Assembly (NCBI GenBank): GCA_014193315.1
Contig: BJHS01000011.1
Location: forward strand, 1-64,000
Direction: 5' to 3'
DNA: 64,000 nt
Source: Verrucomicrobiota bacterium
GTDB taxonomy: Bacteria > Verrucomicrobiota > Verrucomicrobiia > Opitutales > UBA953
Under the pieces are notes generated by a model that worked only from the letters and a program-made list of their open reading frames with translations, searched no databases and had not been told where the DNA came from. Positions 2,347-53,956 of this stretch are shown one piece after another. The translations under genes were made by a program, and so were the position numbers. Each line of letters opens with the position of its first letter. Positions within the stretch are counted from its first letter, which is position 1.

Positions 2347-3423
2347 ATGTCCAAGATCCTCGTAGCGCTCTCGGGCGGCGTCGACAGCGCCGTGGCGGCC
2401 CTGCTGCTCAAGCAGCAAGGGCACGAGGTCCATGCGGCGTACTTCCGGACCTGGATGAACGAAGAAGGCCTGCCCTTCCCGGGGGAATGCCCGTGGGAAG
2501 ACGACGTCCGCAACGCGCAGGCAGTGGCGGAGCACCTCGGCCTGCCCTTCCGCATCATCGATCTCGTCCAAGACTACCGCGACACCGTCGTGCAATACCT
2601 GGTCGACGGCTATCGCCATGGCCTGACCCCGAACCCGGACATCATCTGCAACCGCGAGATGAAGTTCGGAGTCTTCCTCCGCAAGGCGCTCCAGGATGGC
2701 TACGATGTCATCGCGACGGGCCACTACGCGCGACGACGCGCGAACGCGGACGGAACCTTCGACCTACTCGAAGGCCTCGACCCGGGCAAGGACCAGTCCT
2801 ACTTCCTCGCGCTCCTTCGTCAGGAGCAACTCGCCAAGGCCATCTTCCCGGTCGGCGAGCTCTTGAAACCGGAAGTCCGCCAACTCGCCGCCGATGCCCA
2901 GTTACCCAACGCCGAGCGCAAAGATAGCCAAGGCATCTGCTTCCTCGGACAGGTCCCCGTGCAGGACTTCCTCGAGCGGCATATCCCGGATTCGCCGGGC
3001 CCGATCGTGAACGCCGCCGGCAAAGAGATCGGCAAACACCGCGGCCTCCACCGCTTCACCCTCGGCCAGCGCAAAGGCATCTGCCTGCCGTCCAACACCG
3101 ACCACGAGTACTTCGTCGTCGTGAAGAAGAACTTCGCTACCAACACCCTGCATGTCGCCTTCGACAAGCCCGACGCGCCTTGGCTGTACACGGACGAAGC
3201 CGTCGCCCGGGACTTCACCTGGCTCAACCAGCCCGTGGTCGGCGAACAAGCCATCCTCGCCCGCGTGCGCTACCGCGACAAGGCGACGGCTGCCCGCTTC
3301 ATCCCGCAAGCCGACGGCACCGTCCGCCTTCGCTTCGCCGAGACCCAACGCGGCCTCGCCCCCGGTCAAGTCCTCGCCGTCTACCGCGACCGCGTGCTGA
3401 TGGGTGGAGGGGTGTTTGTTTAG
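2347..3423 (+). CDS. mnmA: tRNA-specific 2-thiouridylase MnmA
   Basis: 358 residues from ATG 2347, where the protein starts with MSKILVALSGGVDSAVA, the PP-loop ATP-binding motif (SGGVDS at 9-14). The catalytic Cys pair is visible: Cys101 in NPDIICNREMKF and Cys198 in DSQGICFLG. GQRKGI follows near 283. The enzyme adds sulfur to U34 of tRNA-Lys, -Glu and -Gln in the cytoplasm. The longer upstream frame is GC-rich leader and overlaps the divergent LysM gene, so it was rejected. The TAG stop is also the first three bases of a heptamer repeat array. No Shine-Dalgarno sequence is seen; the leader is C-rich. Confidence 0.97.
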   Translation: MSKILVALSGGVDSAVAALLLKQQGHEVHAAYFRTWMNEEGLPFPGECPWEDDVRNAQAVAEHLGLPFRIIDLVQDYRDTVVQYLVDGYRHGLTPNPDIICNREMKFGVFLRKALQDGYDVIATGHYARRRANADGTFDLLEGLDPGKDQSYFLALLRQEQLAKAIFPVGELLKPEVRQLAADAQLPNAERKDSQGICFLGQVPVQDFLERHIPDSPGPIVNAAGKEIGKHRGLHRFTLGQRKGICLPSNTDHEYFVVVKKNFATNTLHVAFDKPDAPWLYTDEAVARDFTWLNQPVVGEQAILARVRYRDKATAARFIPQADGTVRLRFAETQRGLAPGQVLAVYRDRVLMGGGVFV

Positions 3424-3532
3424 GTGATAGGAAATAGGGAGTGGGTTTTGGGTGTTGGGTGCCTACGCCCTACCCCCACATACCCACCCCCCAATCCCTC
3501 AATCTCTTCTCCCTATTCCCTAATTCCTACCC
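3421..3532. repeat. Heptamer array (16 units) forming a hairpin between mnmA and ubiE
   Basis: Starting on the mnmA stop codon, the spacer divides into sixteen 7-bp units with no phase slip. Six are of TAGGNNN/TGGGNNN type (TAGGTGA, TAGGAAA, TGGGTGT...). They are followed by CTACNCC and CCTANNN types (CCTATTC, CCTAATT, CCTACCC). The right-hand units are the reverse-complement class of the left-hand units, so the array can form a long imperfect hairpin. The same TGGGTGT-TGGG-CTA centre recurs at 39455-39524. Confidence 0.8.
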
Positions 3533-30261: not shown

Positions 30262-30489
30262 GTTGATCCGTTGATCGGTTGGCCAGTTGGCCGGAGCGTT
30301 ACAAGAGCATGGGCCGATTTTCGATTGAGCGCCAAGAGGGAGTGGTAACCAGACATGAGGAGGCGAAAGGTCACATCGACCCCGGGGATGGCTGTCAGCT
30401 CCGATTGCCATCGCTGCCCTCTCACCGCCCCCGTGCCTTGGGATTGCTGTCTCTCCCTGGCCAACTGGCCAACCGATCAACGGATCAAC
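30262..30489. repeat. Inverted pair of four-unit octamer arms between thiL and the small membrane gene
   Basis: Left arm 30262-30293 is GTTGATCC, GTTGATCG, GTTGGCCA, GTTGGCCG. Right arm 30458-30489 is its reverse complement at 31 of 32 positions. About 164 bp lie between the arms with no clear gene. Each arm is itself a clean 4 x 8-bp tandem array. The element sits between convergent genes. Confidence 0.85.
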
Positions 30490-32071: not shown

Positions 32072-32188
32072 GCCCCAAGTTAAGACACCCGGAAATCAGG
32101 CGGAAGCGTAAAAGGCACGGGGCGGACGCCTCTCATTTTTATGATTTCACTTTTGCCCTCGCCCTCCCCGCCCCTTATCCCCCTTCCC

Positions 32189-32938
32189 ATGCGCACCCCC
32201 GCCGCCTTCCTCCTCGCCTGCCTACTGGCCCTCCCCGCGTTCGCCGCCGACGGTGCCAAGCCCGCCCCCAAGGCGGACGCGAAAGCCGCCTCCCCCAAGC
32301 CGCTCGCGGAACAGCCGTTGCGCATGGCGAAGGATATCGCGGCCTTCGAGGCCAAGGATAAGGCCAACCCACCCCCTCAGCATGCCCTCCTCCTCAGCGG
32401 CGCGAGCTCGTTGCGCATGTGGAAGAATGTGGACGAAGCGCTCAAGCCCTACCTGGTGATCAACCGCGGCTTCGGCGGCTCCTACACCACCGAGGTCCTC
32501 GGTTACATGGATCGCATCACCCTGCCTTACCACCCGCGCGTGGTCGTCTTTCATTGCGGCGGTAATGACGTCAACGCCGGCGACGCGGCCGAGGCCCCGC
32601 TCGGCCGCATCCGCGAGTACGTGAAGCGCCTGCGCAAGGACAACCCCGACTCCGCCGTGGTCTTCATGGCCACCACGCGGGCCCCGTCCCGCAAAGCCAA
32701 GTGGCCGGAACTCGACAAGTTCAACGCCGGCCTCGCCGCCTACTGCAAGGAAGAGTCGAACGTCTGGTTCGTCGATATCAACCCCGCCCTCAATCAGGCC
32801 AGCGGCGAAGGCAAGGAAGGCCACTACCTCAAGGATAACCTCCACCCCAGCGAACTCGGTTACCAAGAAATCGCCAAGGTCCTGAAGCCCTCCGTCGACG
32901 CCGCTTGGAAGGCGACGGAAGCGGCGTTTAAGAAGTAA
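32189..32938 (+). CDS. Secreted SGNH/GDSL-type esterase
   Basis: 249 residues from ATG 32189, giving the signal peptide MRTPAAFLLACLLALPAFAA and an Ala/Lys/Pro-rich linker. Block I is LLLSGASSLRMWKN with the nucleophile at Ser73/74, block II is INRGFGGSYT, block III is CGGNDVNAG (Asn126), and block V is DNLHPSELGY. The full set is present, in contrast to the related but truncated gene at 43049-43408. Likely a periplasmic ester hydrolase; the substrate is unknown. Confidence 0.88.
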   Translation: MRTPAAFLLACLLALPAFAADGAKPAPKADAKAASPKPLAEQPLRMAKDIAAFEAKDKANPPPQHALLLSGASSLRMWKNVDEALKPYLVINRGFGGSYTTEVLGYMDRITLPYHPRVVVFHCGGNDVNAGDAAEAPLGRIREYVKRLRKDNPDSAVVFMATTRAPSRKAKWPELDKFNAGLAAYCKEESNVWFVDINPALNQASGEGKEGHYLKDNLHPSELGYQEIAKVLKPSVDAAWKATEAAFKK

Positions 32939-33278
32939 GCGGGGCTAAATCCGACAGTTGATCTGTCGATCGGTTGGCCGGCTGGCCAGAGGGTGACGCA
33001 TTAAGCCCAGAAAGGAATCCGTTAGGGCTGACCGTCCCCGTCGGACGTGTCTCTTGGGAAAACGCAGCCGAGTACGGATTACGGAGTACGGAACGGCGCA
33101 TCAGCCAAAAAGCAGGCCGCACCCATTCCCTGACCCCATCAGTACTCAGTACTCCGTACTCGCTTCTACACTCCATACTCGATCCAGCACCCGATCCGGC
33201 ACTCTACCGTATCTATCCCCGCCCCTGTCCCTTATCTATTTTACTCCTCCCTCGCCTGCCCCCACCTTCTGACCACCG
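32939..33278. repeat. Gene-free spacer holding an octamer array and composite element copy A
   Basis: This 340-bp spacer holds no gene. Positions 32957-32988 are four octamers (GTTGATCT, GTCGATCG, GTTGGCCG, GCTGGCCA). Positions 33023-33190 form element copy A. It starts TTAGGGCTGACCGTCCC, has a GAGTACG-type heptamer arm (33070-33097), a loop GCATCAGCC...GACCCC, and a CAGTACT/CCGTACT arm (33140-33188). Copy B lies inverted on the other side of the MFS gene. A pyrimidine-rich stretch leads to the MFS start. Confidence 0.8.
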
Positions 33279-34541
33279 ATGTCCTCCCCTTCCGAGCAGC
33301 CCACCCCCGAGCGCTTCCCGAACGGGCCGTTCGTGCGCTACATGGCCGGCGAAGGGATCTCGATGACGGGGACGTGGATGCAGGGTATGGCGTTGGGTTG
33401 GGTCATGACGGAGGTCGTCGCCCGCGAAGGCCTCCAGCGCTATGAAGGTCTCCTCCAAGCCTTGCCGCACCTCGCGAGCGGTCTGGTCATGCTGGCGCTC
33501 TTCCGCCCGGGCGGCGCGTACGCCGACCGCCATGACAAGCGCTTCATTCTTCAGGTCTGTCAGTTCGCGCAGATCGGCTTCGCCCTCGTGATCGGCCAGC
33601 TCATCGCCCACGACGCCTTGCACACCTGGCACCTCATCGCGGCGGCGGCCCTGCTTGGCATCTCCAGTTCATTCGAAATGCCGGCCGCCGCGGCGATCGT
33701 CCCGGAACTCGTAGCCAAGGAGAACGTCGCCAAGGCCATCTCGGTGGACCGCGCGGTCTTCCACGCCACCCGACTCGTCGGTCCGGCCGCCGCCGGCTAC
33801 CTCGTCACCAGCTACGGCGCCGAATGGGCTTTTTACCTGAACGCGGCTTCTTTCGTGGCGCTGATGATCGCACTGGCCACCCTACCCCGTCGACCGCAAG
33901 GCACGGCCGAGGAAGAGCAGAAACGTCAAGGCGGGGCCGGGGAAGGCTTTCGTCACGTCCGCCAGGACAAACCTAGCCTCGCGATGGTCGCCCTACTCGC
34001 GACCAACACGCTCTTCGTCTTCCCCGTCATCATCGTACTCCTCCCGCTGTACGCGAAGAACGACCTCCACGCCACCGCCAAGGAAATGGGCCTGTTGATG
34101 CTGTGCTCCGGACTGGGCTCGGTCTCCGGATCACTCCTCATCATGGCGCTGAATGTCGCGTGGCGCCGCATCGCCATCCTGACCGGCATGGTCCTCGCCT
34201 GCGGCGCGCTCGTCAGTCTCAGCCAGGCCACCGGACTGATTTGGGCTGGCCTCTCGCTCGTCACCCTGGCCGTGGGCGTGTCCACGCTGGTTGGCCTCGC
34301 CAACACCATCGTCCAAGAACGCTCGCCGGCGGAGCTGCGCGGGCGCGTCTCCGCGGTGGCTGGACTGAGCTTCTTCGGCTTCCTACCCTTCGCCGCGGTC
34401 ATCATGGGCTGGATGACCGACCTCTTCAAACTACGCAACGTCCTGCTAGGCTCGTCGATCTGCTACGCCATCATCGGTCTTCTCGTGATGCTCACCCTCG
34501 GCAGCAAGGTCACCGGGGACGAGGAACGCAGCAGTGAGTAG
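33279..34541 (+). CDS. MFS transporter, EntS-like (MFS_3) exporter
   Basis: 420 residues with about 11-12 membrane segments. The N-terminus FPNGPFVRYMAGEGISMTGTWMQGMALGWVM is typical of the EntS/MFS_3 group. The A-motif-like loop GGAYADRHDKRFILQ follows TM2, then ISSSFEMPAAAAIVPELVAKENVAKAISVDRAVFHATRLVGPAAAGYLV. The second half repeats the fold with VQERSPAELRGRVSAVAGLSFFG. Members export siderophores or drugs; the substrate is unknown. The gene is flanked by two inverted copies of a composite repeat, and its TAG stop is part of a GAGTAGG heptamer. Confidence 0.9.
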   Translation: MSSPSEQPTPERFPNGPFVRYMAGEGISMTGTWMQGMALGWVMTEVVAREGLQRYEGLLQALPHLASGLVMLALFRPGGAYADRHDKRFILQVCQFAQIGFALVIGQLIAHDALHTWHLIAAAALLGISSSFEMPAAAAIVPELVAKENVAKAISVDRAVFHATRLVGPAAAGYLVTSYGAEWAFYLNAASFVALMIALATLPRRPQGTAEEEQKRQGGAGEGFRHVRQDKPSLAMVALLATNTLFVFPVIIVLLPLYAKNDLHATAKEMGLLMLCSGLGSVSGSLLIMALNVAWRRIAILTGMVLACGALVSLSQATGLIWAGLSLVTLAVGVSTLVGLANTIVQERSPAELRGRVSAVAGLSFFGFLPFAAVIMGWMTDLFKLRNVLLGSSICYAIIGLLVMLTLGSKVTGDEERSSE

Positions 34542-34780
34542 GCCGCGGGGAGTAGGGAGTGGGGAGTCGAGTCCTGGATCGAGTACAGAGGGCTGAGTTC
34601 TGAGTATAGAGAGCTGAGTACAGATCGGGTCAGGAAATTGGTATGTTCTGCTTTTGGGCTGATGCATCGTACTGTACTCCGCAATCCGTACTCAGCTGCG
34701 ACCCCCCAAAAGTCACGGCCGACCGGGACGGTCAGCCCTACCTAATTAATAACTGTCCCTGTCCCGTCCCTGCCCCTGGC
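34536..34780. repeat. Composite repeat element copy B (inverted) with hexamers
   Basis: Heptamers GAGTAGG/GAGTGGG begin on the MFS stop codon. A clean run of six GAGNNNN units covers 34581-34622 (GAGTACA, GAGGGCT, GAGTTCT...). The loop 34623-34665 and the arm 34669-34695 follow, and the end GGGACGGTCAGCCCTA (34725-34740) is the mirror of the start of copy A. Hexamers CTGTCC, CTGTCC continue at 34753-34770. Read on the minus strand, it is homologous to 33023-33190 over the whole length. Confidence 0.8.
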
Positions 34781-34800: not shown

Positions 34801-34875
34801 TGGTGCACCCGTTGGGACTCGAACCCAAATCGCCGGCTTCGGAGGCCAGAATTCTATCCATTGAAATACGGGTAC
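34801..34875 (-). tRNA. tRNA-Arg (anticodon CCG)
   Basis: On the minus strand GTACCCG pairs with CGGGTGC, including one U-G pair. The anticodon stem CTGGC/GCCGG holds CTCCGAA, anticodon CCG. The T arm is TTGGG-TTCGAGT-CCCAA. The discriminator is A and CCA is encoded (34801-34803). Confidence 0.95.
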
Positions 34876-35829: not shown

Positions 35830-37107
35830 CTATTTACGGGCGAGCACCCGGTCCGCAAAATCGAGGTAGGCCTGCCAATCCTCGAGCGTGACGTCATGCT
35901 TACCGGCACGCACGTGGTAGCCGATGGACTGGCCGACCCTCTGGCCGACCGCCGGGTAGACCTCGGTGCCAAGGCCAGGCTGGCCGAGGAGTTTAAAGAC
36001 CGGCTCGGCCGCCAGCGCCCCGAGGAACTCGCCCTTGGGGTCCGACCAGCGGTCCTCGACGGCGCTGGCGACGTAGAGCGGGCGGGGGGCGATGAGCGCG
36101 AGGAGGTGGTGCTGGTCAAGGGGCATGCGGTCCTCTTTCTCGGCGAAGGTGGCGTAGCGGGCGGTGAACCAATGCGGGAAGCCGCGACCAGGGTAAGCGC
36201 CGGCGATGATGCCGACGGTCTCGCCGAAGATCCGTTTGCCGAGGGCGGCACCGCCGCAACCGGACTCATTGGAGATGATGAGCGCAAAACGTTCGTTCTG
36301 GGCGCCGGCCCAGAGCGAGGCCTTGCCGAGACGCGAATGACCAATCACGGCGACACGCTTGGCGTCGACCGCGGGAATCTGCTCGAGCGCGTCGAGCGAA
36401 CGCGAGAGGCCCCAGGCCCACGCGCCGATGCAGGCCCAGTCGCCATCCTTCCACACGGTATTCGCACCGTCAGGGGAGAGCGCCGCGCGGAAGCCCTGCT
36501 TCCAGCCTTCGGGGAAGTCGGGTTCGAAATCCCCGCAGTAGACCGTCGCCAGCGCGTAGCCGCGCGCGATTAGAGTCTCGACCTGCCAGCGGGCGGCCTG
36601 ACTACCCCGCCCTTTCTCGGCAGCGCGGCTCGACCCATCGGCCGCGGCCCACTGCTTCGAGACCCAGGTGGAGGGCAGGAGGACCGCCTTATCTTCAACC
36701 GCGGTGTGATTGCCGCCGAAATTGAGCCCGAGAAAAACCGGGACAGCCCCCTTCGCCCCATTGGGTACGTAAAGCAAGAGATCGAAGGCCGGGCCGGACT
36801 TGCCGATCGGCCAGACCTTGAGCTGCGTGCGCGTGGCCTTGCCGTCGAGGGCCGTGGCGGAAGTTTCGACGACCTCGGACACCGCGGCCAGCTGGCGCGG
36901 ACGCGTGTCGGGCGTGCGACCGTAGATGTTCTCCTCGACCAGCTTCATCACCTCGGGTCGGCGGGACTCGCGCCACTGCTTCGCCTCCACGACCCGGCGG
37001 CCGGCGTTGTCCACCAGCGGATCCGGCAGCGTGTACGGCGGCACCTTCGCCTCATCATCGATCGTGGCAGGTATCGTCGCGGCCAGGAAAAGCAGGGGTA
37101 GAAGCAT
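35830..37107 (-). CDS. CE15-family glucuronoyl methylesterase
   Basis: 425 residues with a weak N-terminal signal (MLLPLLFLAATIPAT). The alpha/beta-hydrolase nucleophile is Ser258 in VIGHSRLGKASLW. SNESGCGG follows (about 280-287), then VEDRWSDPKGEF and the late KHDVT His near 408. GLNFGGNHT near 127-134 forms the oxyanion region. In CE15 enzymes these residues cleave ester links between lignin alcohols and glucuronoyl side chains of xylan. Bacterial members have GHSRLG as here. The first bases of the gene run straight into a heptamer repeat array. Confidence 0.9.
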   Translation of the reverse strand: MLLPLLFLAATIPATIDDEAKVPPYTLPDPLVDNAGRRVVEAKQWRESRRPEVMKLVEENIYGRTPDTRPRQLAAVSEVVETSATALDGKATRTQLKVWPIGKSGPAFDLLLYVPNGAKGAVPVFLGLNFGGNHTAVEDKAVLLPSTWVSKQWAAADGSSRAAEKGRGSQAARWQVETLIARGYALATVYCGDFEPDFPEGWKQGFRAALSPDGANTVWKDGDWACIGAWAWGLSRSLDALEQIPAVDAKRVAVIGHSRLGKASLWAGAQNERFALIISNESGCGGAALGKRIFGETVGIIAGAYPGRGFPHWFTARYATFAEKEDRMPLDQHHLLALIAPRPLYVASAVEDRWSDPKGEFLGALAAEPVFKLLGQPGLGTEVYPAVGQRVGQSIGYHVRAGKHDVTLEDWQAYLDFADRVLARK

Positions 37108-37108
37108 G

Positions 37109-37256
37109 AGGGATTGGGGTTTAAGTATTAGGAATCAGGGATTAGGTTTTAGAAAGACGGAAATAATCACCGAACTAAAACCCACCCCTTCTTCCCACCC
37201 CCCTAACACCTAATCCCCAATCCCTAATCCCTACTCCCTATTTCCCCCTCTCCTAC
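37109..37256. repeat. Inverted heptamer arrays between CE15 and folA
   Basis: Left arm 37109-37157 has seven units (AGGGATT, GGGGTTT, AAGTATT, AGGAATC, AGGGATT, AGGTTTT, AGAAAGA). Right arm 37201-37256 has eight units of the complementary class (CCCTAAC, ACCTAAT, CCCCAAT, CCCTAAT...). The left arm starts one base after the CE15 start codon, and the last right-hand unit contains the folA stop codon. The AT-rich centre has no gene. Confidence 0.85.
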
Positions 37257-52362: not shown

Positions 52363-53679
52363 ATGGCCAACCCAAGCGCAAGCGAACTCCTGAACAAAGC
52401 CCTCGCCACGGCGGCGACCGGCGATGTGACCGCGACGAAGGCCGACTTCGACAAGGCGATGAAGGCGGCCGAGTTCGGCGATGGCGGCACGCTCGACCAC
52501 GTGATGCATGCCTATGCGGCCTACTTGCGGGCGCAGCGGGAGTTCCCGAAGGCGATCCAACTGAACCGCATGCGACTCGACCTGCGACGCCTCGCCAAAC
52601 GGGAGGAGCCCGGCCTGATCGTGGACGGCATCCTCGACCTAGCGATCACGCTGCGCGGGGCCGGCGAGAACCTCGAGGCGGAGGCTTTGCTGCATGAGGC
52701 CATCGCCATGGCCGAGGCTTCACCGATGCCATCGGCGCTGGTGGCGAACGCGTTGATCTACCTCAGCATGCATCACTTGGAGCGCAAGGAGTTCGCCAAG
52801 GAGCTGGCGTTGCTCGAGCGCGCATTGAAGGCCCGAGAGGCGGACCCAACCTGCCCTCCCGCCGAACTGGCCCTCACCCGCGACCAAACCGCCAAGGCCT
52901 GCCTGCGCGCCAAGGATTTTCCCCGCGCCCGCGAGCTTTTGAGCCAAGCCCTACCGGTGCTCGACACGACGCCGCAGTTCGACCTCGACCCGAATATCCC
53001 CCAAGGCTGGCTAGCCTTGGCCACGCTTTGCGCCGAACAAGGAAACCTGCCTGCGGCCGCCCGCCACGCCCGCCAGGCCTTTGAGCGAGCCCGGAAGTTA
53101 GCCAGCAAACTACCCCATGCGCCCACGGAACTGCATTTCTTCGTGCTCCAGACCGCCCACCAGGCCGCGACCTACGCGGCGATGGCGCAGCAACCCGCCG
53201 AGGCCGCCCAGCTCACCTGGGAGGCTCATGAGCACGCCAAGGCGAATTTCGCAGGCAACCCGCTGCCCGCCCTGGAGACCTTACAGATTCACTTGAACTA
53301 CGTGATTGGCGCAGGGGAATTCGCCAAGGCCGAGCCGCTGATGCGCCAGGTGGTGGCAGGCAAGATGATGCTGCTCGGCGAGGACCACCTCGATCTCAGC
53401 GTCCCCTTCAATAACCTCGGGTTCATCCTCATGAACCTCGGTAAGGATGCCGAGGCCGAGACCTGCTTCCGCAAGGCCTGGGCCGCGTGCGTGCGCGCCC
53501 CCGCCACCGAACACAACGGCCACGCGCTTAAGAATCTCGGCCTGCTTTATCAGAAACAAGGCAAGACCGCCGAGGCCACCGCTGAGTTCAAGGCCGCCCT
53601 CGCCGTACTGGAACCACAGCTCGGCGCAGAGCATCCCGTGGTGAAGATGGTGAGGGCGGGAGCGGCCAGCTCCCGCTAG
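52363..53679 (+). CDS. TPR-repeat protein
   Basis: 438 residues from ATG 52363; the earlier in-frame ATG lies inside the sulfatase gene and was rejected. No signal peptide, so cytosolic. About eight tetratricopeptide-like helix pairs are visible, most clearly at the C-terminus (LSVPFNNLGFILMNLGKDAEAETCFRKAWAA, GHALKNLGLLYQKQGKTAEATAEFKAALAVLEPQLG), similar to kinesin-light-chain-type TPRs. Function unknown beyond protein binding. A hairpin (GCGGGAGC/GCTCCCGC, 53656-53676) occupies the last codons, and an octamer array starts on the last base of the stop codon. Confidence 0.82.
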   Translation: MANPSASELLNKALATAATGDVTATKADFDKAMKAAEFGDGGTLDHVMHAYAAYLRAQREFPKAIQLNRMRLDLRRLAKREEPGLIVDGILDLAITLRGAGENLEAEALLHEAIAMAEASPMPSALVANALIYLSMHHLERKEFAKELALLERALKAREADPTCPPAELALTRDQTAKACLRAKDFPRARELLSQALPVLDTTPQFDLDPNIPQGWLALATLCAEQGNLPAAARHARQAFERARKLASKLPHAPTELHFFVLQTAHQAATYAAMAQQPAEAAQLTWEAHEHAKANFAGNPLPALETLQIHLNYVIGAGEFAKAEPLMRQVVAGKMMLLGEDHLDLSVPFNNLGFILMNLGKDAEAETCFRKAWAACVRAPATEHNGHALKNLGLLYQKQGKTAEATAEFKAALAVLEPQLGAEHPVVKMVRAGAASSR

Positions 53680-53923
53680 CTGGCCGGCGGGCAAGTGGGC
53701 CGGTGGACAAGGGGTGGTGCGTTTGCCGCCTAGTTAGAGAAACAAACAGGGTCAGGGAAAGGGAGGCAGAGGTTTGAGGGATTAGGGAGTGGGGAGTGGG
53801 CCGAACACCTACTTCCTAAATCCTAGACCTCTTCAGAGCTGCTGCCCCTACCCGCGCGCGGAGCGCGATAAAAGCGGAGACAGGTCTACCCTTGCCCACG
53901 TGCCCAGTGGCCAGCCGGCCAGC
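53679..53923. repeat. Nested octamer-hexamer-heptamer-octamer block between the TPR gene and tag
   Basis: Octamers at 53679-53710 (GCTGGCCG, GCGGGCAA, GTGGGCCG, GTGGACAA) pair with the inverted octamers at 53892-53923 (TTGCCCAC, GTGCCCAG, TGGCCAGC, CGGCCAGC). Between them are hexamers (53747-53770, CAGGGT, CAGGGA, AAGGGA, GGCAGA) and eight heptamers (53776-53831) that rise as TAGGGAG/TGGGGAG and fall as ACTTCCT/AAATCCT. No gene is seen in this convergent spacer. Confidence 0.82.
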
Positions 53924-53956
53924 TCTGTCTCTCCAACCCCTTGCCCACCTGCCAGC

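Follow-up and report, generated by a model that had tools for sequence, protein, structure and literature searches.

The two inverted repeats that flank an MFS transporter gene in a Verrucomicrobiota bacterium of the order Opitutales are likely to be homologous copies, here called A and B, of a non-coding intergenic cassette composed of two modules, and not a device that moves or inverts the gene between them. Both copies lie in the window, by which we mean the whole stretch of 64,000 nucleotides that was analysed (contig BJHS01000011.1), and the genome it belongs to (2.36 Mb in 44 contigs) is numbered G000 among the genomes compared. The locus itself is ordinary, and it is the genus-wide repeat repertoire behind the locus that is unusual. 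The features of the locus are listed here with their coordinates in the window.

32141..32938, plus strand: GDSL lipase gene (Pfam Lipase_GDSL_2, E 1.5e-20), the syntenic neighbour upstream of copy A
33016..33195, plus strand: copy A, a composite cassette of R palindrome, spacer, heptad hairpin and distal CTCGATCCAG-type repeats (self-comparison, genome search)
33023..33047, plus strand: R module in copy A, a GTAG REP whose tag has decayed to GTTAG (TAGGGCTGACCGTCCCCGTCGGACG; motif comparison)
33069..33162, plus strand: heptad hairpin of copy A, with arms at 33069-33092 and 33139-33162 (24 nt, 88% complementary) and a 46-nt loop
33279..34541, plus strand: gene for an MFS transporter of 420 aa, located between A and B and outside the repeat unit (Pfam MFS_3, E 1.7e-37; MFS_1, E 5.8e-37)
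34567..34740, minus strand: copy B, a composite cassette inverted relative to A (self-comparison, genome search)
34611..34699, minus strand: heptad hairpin of copy B, with arms at 34612-34625 and 34684-34697 (self-comparison)
34716..34740, minus strand: R module of copy B, an intact GTAG REP (GTAGGGCTGACCGTCCCGGTCGGCCG) that matches the consensus R perfectly
34801..34875, minus strand: tRNA-Arg(CCG), the syntenic neighbour downstream of copy B
35830-37107, minus strand: glucuronyl-esterase-like gene beyond the tRNA-Arg, with one ORF without an assigned family between them and DHFR after it

A sequence-only reading of this DNA had described inverted composite copies of 170-180 bp on either side of the MFS gene, diverged and collinear, and this description is correct. 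Copy A used as a query against its own genome recovers copy B at 78% identity over ~172 bp (query 8-179, E 5.4e-33), and the words that had been named in the copies (GGGCTGACCGTCCC, GAGTACGGATT, GCATCAGCC, AAAAGCAG, TGACCC and CTCGATCCAG) are present in an order common to A and B. Self-comparison of the region gives one inverted arm pair of 146 nt at 79% (33016-33161 / 34602-34747) and a second of 34 nt at 76% (33171-33204 / 34557-34590). The next-best matches to copy A after B are fragments of 33-40 bp, and a third full-length copy was not found in this genome-wide search of its own genome with copy A. The pair is genuine, its similarity being far above what chance would give, and no other such pair exists in its own genome. 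At the gathering threshold, Rfam recognizes only tRNAs in the window region.

The first module, R, has the sequence TAGGGCTGACCGTCCCGGTCGGCCG, preceded in most copies by a G that makes the tag GTAG, and sister forms such as TAGGGCTGACCGGCCCGGTCAGCCG are known in the genus. R fits the GTAG REPs, palindromes of 20-40 bp with GTAG at one end: B and most other copies examined carry the tag, and it is decayed in copy A, which reads GTTAGGG where copy B and most relatives read GGTAGGG, and in the A copies of Opitutae bacterium BS10, where it is GGCAG. R is present in 29 of the 55 genus genomes against none for the reversed control, and an order-wide scan of 132 genomes (5 of the genus, 5 of the family's other genera and 122 of other families) gave matches in the genus plus a single genome from the other families. 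Copies within 3 mismatches number 5 in G000, 13 in G058 (BS10), 26 in G014 and 20 in G034, which is lower than the >100 copies per genome given as usual for REPs (PMC2817692). As background, R-family REPs matched 8 places in a 461-kb sample of the window genome and none in 174 kb taken from two others. No R lay inside a predicted ORF in the 52 places checked.

Eight loci, two each in G063 and G029 and one each in G008, G001, G004 and G024 (L192, L193, L194, L196, L197, L200, L203 and L204), have a short Y1/RAYT ORF (136-190 aa) bracketed by R-family REPs, at spacings from a 6-bp overlap with the ORF end, seen at several loci, to ~95 bp away. This flanking position identifies R as a REP of a RAYT group of the genus. 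In the window genome no R-linked RAYT was found, the best Y1 match there scoring 19.7 bits, below the family cut-off, with no R nearby. Large Y1 ORFs of ~310 aa in G014, G034 and on contig C21 of G000 were considered as the source of R and rejected, as no R lies beside them. Larger Y1 transposase ORFs of 303-314 aa were also seen at L056 (G014, contig C15) and L057 (G017, contig C86), and palindrome families unlike R (GGGGTCAGACTACTACATCGTAGTCTGACCCC; GGGGTCAGACCGCTTC...GAAGCGGTCTGACCCC) bracket such larger ORFs. Outside A and B, R also occurs head to head with an adjoining GTAG palindrome, in doublets such as L018 and L079; such a REP doublet (REPIN) is absent from A and B, each of which holds a single R without a head-to-head partner.

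The second module is a hairpin with arms made of degenerate 7-mers in tandem, GAGTACG on one side and CGTACTC on the other, and in copy A the arms read CGAGTACGGATTACGGAGTACGGA and TCAGTACTCAGTACTCCGTACTCG. Arm length differs between copies by whole 7-nt units, also between the two G014 contigs of the B site, of which C189 has one heptad fewer than the other. Across the copies of three species 88% of stem cells are paired, against at most 41% when the arms are slid, and covariation in the stem is weak, with two pairs changed on both sides, a number reached by 17 of 500 shuffles. RNA fold z is -2.8 on the plus strand and -3.2 on the minus strand for A, and -2.9 on the minus strand and -2.0 on the other for B. 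The pattern GAGTACGGAGTACGGAGTAC at up to 3 mismatches, counted so that overlapping registers of one array score several times, has 48 matches in G000, 89 in G014, 153 in G058, 130 in G021 and 137 in G032, but is rare or absent in many of their congeners, and the reversed control yields 0 or 1. The heptad stem belongs to a large genus-restricted dispersed family, and all four paired arrays in a 461-kb sample run in the order GAGT-loop-ACTC.

The genomic setting of intergenic hairpins was surveyed in these 461 kb of the window genome, sampled by stretches. For intergenic folding, convergent gaps had a mean z of -2.68, codirectional gaps -1.18 and divergent gaps -0.49, the gap classes being approximate because they come from simple codon-score gene calls, and convergent gaps, few in number, fold strongly in G055 and G062 too. 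Tandem periodicity in the gaps of the window genome is in excess at 6, 7 and 12 nt, the excess at lags 7 and 6 being absent in G062, G040 and G055. Of 172 gaps, 17 hold a long gapped hairpin with a score of at least 30, and shuffling the gaps left none. Since intergenic folding is strongest between convergent genes, the cassettes read as gene-end hairpins or as tolerated repeats. The window holds further long imperfect hairpins at 30262-30489, 37106-37245, 53678-53924 and 3421-3529, whose arm words are GTTGATC/GGCCAGTT, ATTAGGG-like, GGGCAAGT and TAGGTGATAGG. In other species the same two gaps as those of A and B carry unrelated hairpins, with arms GAGTATC, TAGCGGT, CAGGGA, ACCGGAA and others, or REP dimers.

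How far these hairpins serve the gene ends is a separate question from what they are. The cassettes may be purely neutral repeats, the outcome of REP insertion and slippage-prone DNA with no gene-end role, so that the bias to convergent gaps would come from purging from promoters and genes. We regard this as a serious contender, though we lean away from it, and it bears on the gene-end role only, overlapping with our reading of the identity of the element and of its not moving the gene. Several findings are what neutrality would predict: heptad copy number is unstable, unrelated cassettes occupy the same gap in different species, and the terminator consensus is not enriched, as canonical intrinsic terminators around the cassettes number 2 sites, both on R, against 1.5 expected by chance, and the loops of the heptad hairpins are long, with no U-tract following the stem. 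The orientation of R is also random relative to genes (9 same and 12 opposite with respect to codirectional genes), which makes a directional terminator role of R unlikely; the idea that R acts as an orientation-dependent terminator and explains the inversion through the opposite strands of the GDSL and tRNA genes was rejected on the same counts. On the other hand, folding is stronger towards gene ends than dinucleotide shuffles account for, and the arms remain complementary across diverged copies, although palindrome-templated mutation could suffice for the latter without selection.

The distribution of the full cassette among relatives is narrow. A genome-wide search with A covered 57 genomes (its own, 36 others of the genus and 20 of the order), and in these full A/B copies besides those of the own genome were found only in G014, again at the MFS locus and inverted, the orthologue of copy A lying at L058 2685-2862. 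Of the 18 genus genomes outside this search, G058 among them, the ones with a listed MFS locus were examined at that locus alone. At this locus G058 ("Opitutae bacterium BS10"; L068 / L114) carries B downstream of the MFS gene and three tandem A copies upstream with a period of ~207 bp, and two of these units, 99% identical, are the product of a recent tandem duplication. The search with A of the own genome and the 36 genus members revealed no full-length A/B elsewhere; contig C189 of G014 was considered as a third full-length copy and rejected, being the same B locus at 98% identity and adjoining the same tRNA. Cassette-free gaps are seen in G009 (83 bp upstream) and in G062 (113 bp upstream and 17 bp downstream). 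The window species, G014 and G058 form one clade on the GDSL tree (support 97/91), and the simplest history is a single gain, or a gain plus a duplication, in the ancestor of these three sister species, with the orientation fixed since. Concerted evolution of A and B was suggested by G014, where A and B are 93% identical and orthologues 82-92%, and was set aside since the copy tree gives it no support.

MFS orthologues occur in 46 of the 55 genus genomes, and thus the gene is resident and independent of the repeats. The MFS protein also matches contigs of Opitutales MAGs assigned to UBA953, UBA957, UBA7397, Opitutae bacterium BS6, BS10 and others, and judging by names the genus consists mostly of metagenome-derived Opitutales, largely from freshwater. 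Of the 30 related loci, the one in the window included, 29 have GDSL upstream and on the strand of the MFS gene, and 24 have tRNA-Arg downstream, the exceptions being contig ends or another downstream gene, and the order GDSL-MFS-tRNA-Arg is kept in genus members without A/B as well. The gene itself is variable in this fixed place. Between G014 and the window the MFS proteins are only 63% identical while GDSL is 93% identical, so that L087 of G014 and window 33279-34541 represent two strongly diverged allele groups at one syntenic position, and on the MFS tree the two groups split at 100/100 and cut across the GDSL tree. Comparison of the trees points to repeated exchange of MFS alleles at the locus across the genus, also in species without A/B. 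A and B as the edges of such swaps were considered and are not supported: G014 and the window stay similar beyond A and into the start of MFS, and alleles have also been swapped in species without A/B.

The earlier reading had gone further and proposed a mobile or amplified unit that could flip or move the transporter by recombination. Amplification stands in part, in that R is a RAYT-linked REP module, heptad arrays are dispersed and A is triplicated in BS10; the flipping or moving of the gene is not borne out, as it keeps the same place and orientation with or without A/B. That reading had named the absence of further copies together with a fixed orientation as evidence against itself, and this is what was found for the full composite at the species level, though not for its parts. 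An invertible cassette, whose MFS gene would be switched by A-B recombination as in phase variation, is highly improbable. A single gene does lie between inverted repeats, three sister species keep both copies, and exact runs shared by A and B reach 34 bp in G014 and 28 bp in G058. However, no inverted MFS gene was seen in any of the assemblies examined, with or without the repeats, and in the window A and B, at 78% identity, have a longest exact run of only 15 bp, short for homologous recombination. A Pfam scan of seven neighbouring proteins, of which two have no family, named no recombinase near the cassettes, and inversion would only silence the MFS gene, whose start and 5' leader are not within the repeats. 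Movement of A-MFS-B en bloc, like a transposon with terminal inverted repeats, has the inverted layout with R, a RAYT-linked REP in the genus, outermost, and the differing G014 allele (63% aa from G000/G058) between agreeing flanks in its favour, but is extremely improbable, since the gene sits at the same syntenic place in genomes without A/B and swaps alleles there too, the G014 swap edge is not at the repeat, and neither a second A-MFS-B locus nor an empty site for the gene was found in the genomes searched, the own genome and 36 genus members for the pair. Repeats next to the copies obscure their ends, where target-site duplications would lie, and the species offers no exact empty site.

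In the reading that we prefer, the MFS gene would already have been resident when the ancestor of the window species, G014 and G058 acquired the cassette on either side of it, by insertion or duplication. The first module of the cassette is a GTAG-tagged REP palindrome of the family that flanks RAYT genes elsewhere in the genus, presumably brought in by RAYT-catalysed single-strand transposition, and its second a long imperfect hairpin with degenerate 7-mer arms from a large dispersed family. Comparison of the copies shows change by 7-bp steps in arm length and by tandem duplication of the whole cassette, for which replication slippage and template switching within the palindrome are the likely route; the same two processes may have kept the arms complementary, with or without selection. 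The cassettes sit only between genes and mostly at gene ends. They are most likely retained as hairpins that the genome tolerates at 3' ends or in spacers, where they may stabilise or terminate the transcripts from either side or insulate them. A broader proposal is offered tentatively, and we think it rather doubtful: orthologous gaps might carry interchangeable hairpin cassettes with arms of differing 6-8-nt tandem words (GAGTACG, GAGTATC, TAGCGGT, ATTAGGG, CAGGGA, ACCGGAA and others across the genus), in which shape is kept and sequence replaced through RAYT-REP movement and palindrome-templated slippage, so that gene-end structure would be maintained through turnover.

As the case shows, turnover of intergenic repeats can produce a conspicuous inverted pair on either side of a gene where no switch is involved. 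A RAYT-linked REP family is also defined for a genus of freshwater bacteria, and one syntenic locus in ~30 species, with many differing hairpins, provides a large comparative set with which one can ask whether gene-end hairpins are selected for their shape or are by-products of palindrome-driven mutation.

Among known systems, the GTAG REPs, which include families of Opitutus terrae (PMC3733652), resemble R, which is a palindrome of ~25 bp, tagged GTAG at one end and scattered between genes. The GTAG-17 REPs of Opitutus terrae are head-to-head dimers 1-2 bp apart (PMC3733652), and other R copies likewise abut a second GTAG REP head to head, whereas R in A and B is single and joined to a heptad hairpin in place of a REP partner; R also differs in its restriction, with only 1 of 122 genomes sampled from the order's other families having the motif. 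The REPIN/RAYT system (Bertels and Rainey, 2011; PMC3116915) is matched by the R-family REPs at both ends of short Y1 transposase ORFs, but A and B are not REP doublets, the window genome is without an R-linked RAYT, and R copy numbers are low, from 5 to ~26 per genome for this pattern in the genomes noted. For the heptad module, the marine Beggiatoaceae have genome-wide intergenic tandem heptamers of TAACTGA, which are described as direct repeats and not as paired into hairpin arms (PMC4679880). The origin of hairpins by template switching (PMC8794818) supplies a mutational path by which long stems can stay complementary, though it is a mechanism and not an element family. The P6b stem of the Nostoc trnL intron consists of degenerate 7-mers with the Class II motif NNTGAGT, gains and loses 7-nt units on either arm, and has seen one class of repeat give way to another in that position (PMC4476775). 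It shares with the cassettes the degenerate 7-mer stem (NNTGAGT being close to GAGTANN), the 7-nt arm changes and the class replacement in situ, and differs in being a single stem within a tRNA intron where ours is a dispersed intergenic family. Degenerate and dispersed tandem 7-mers of the STRR-like heptanucleotide kind are found here as well, with 48 matches in G000 against 0 in the control, an excess at lag 7, and 7-nt indels.
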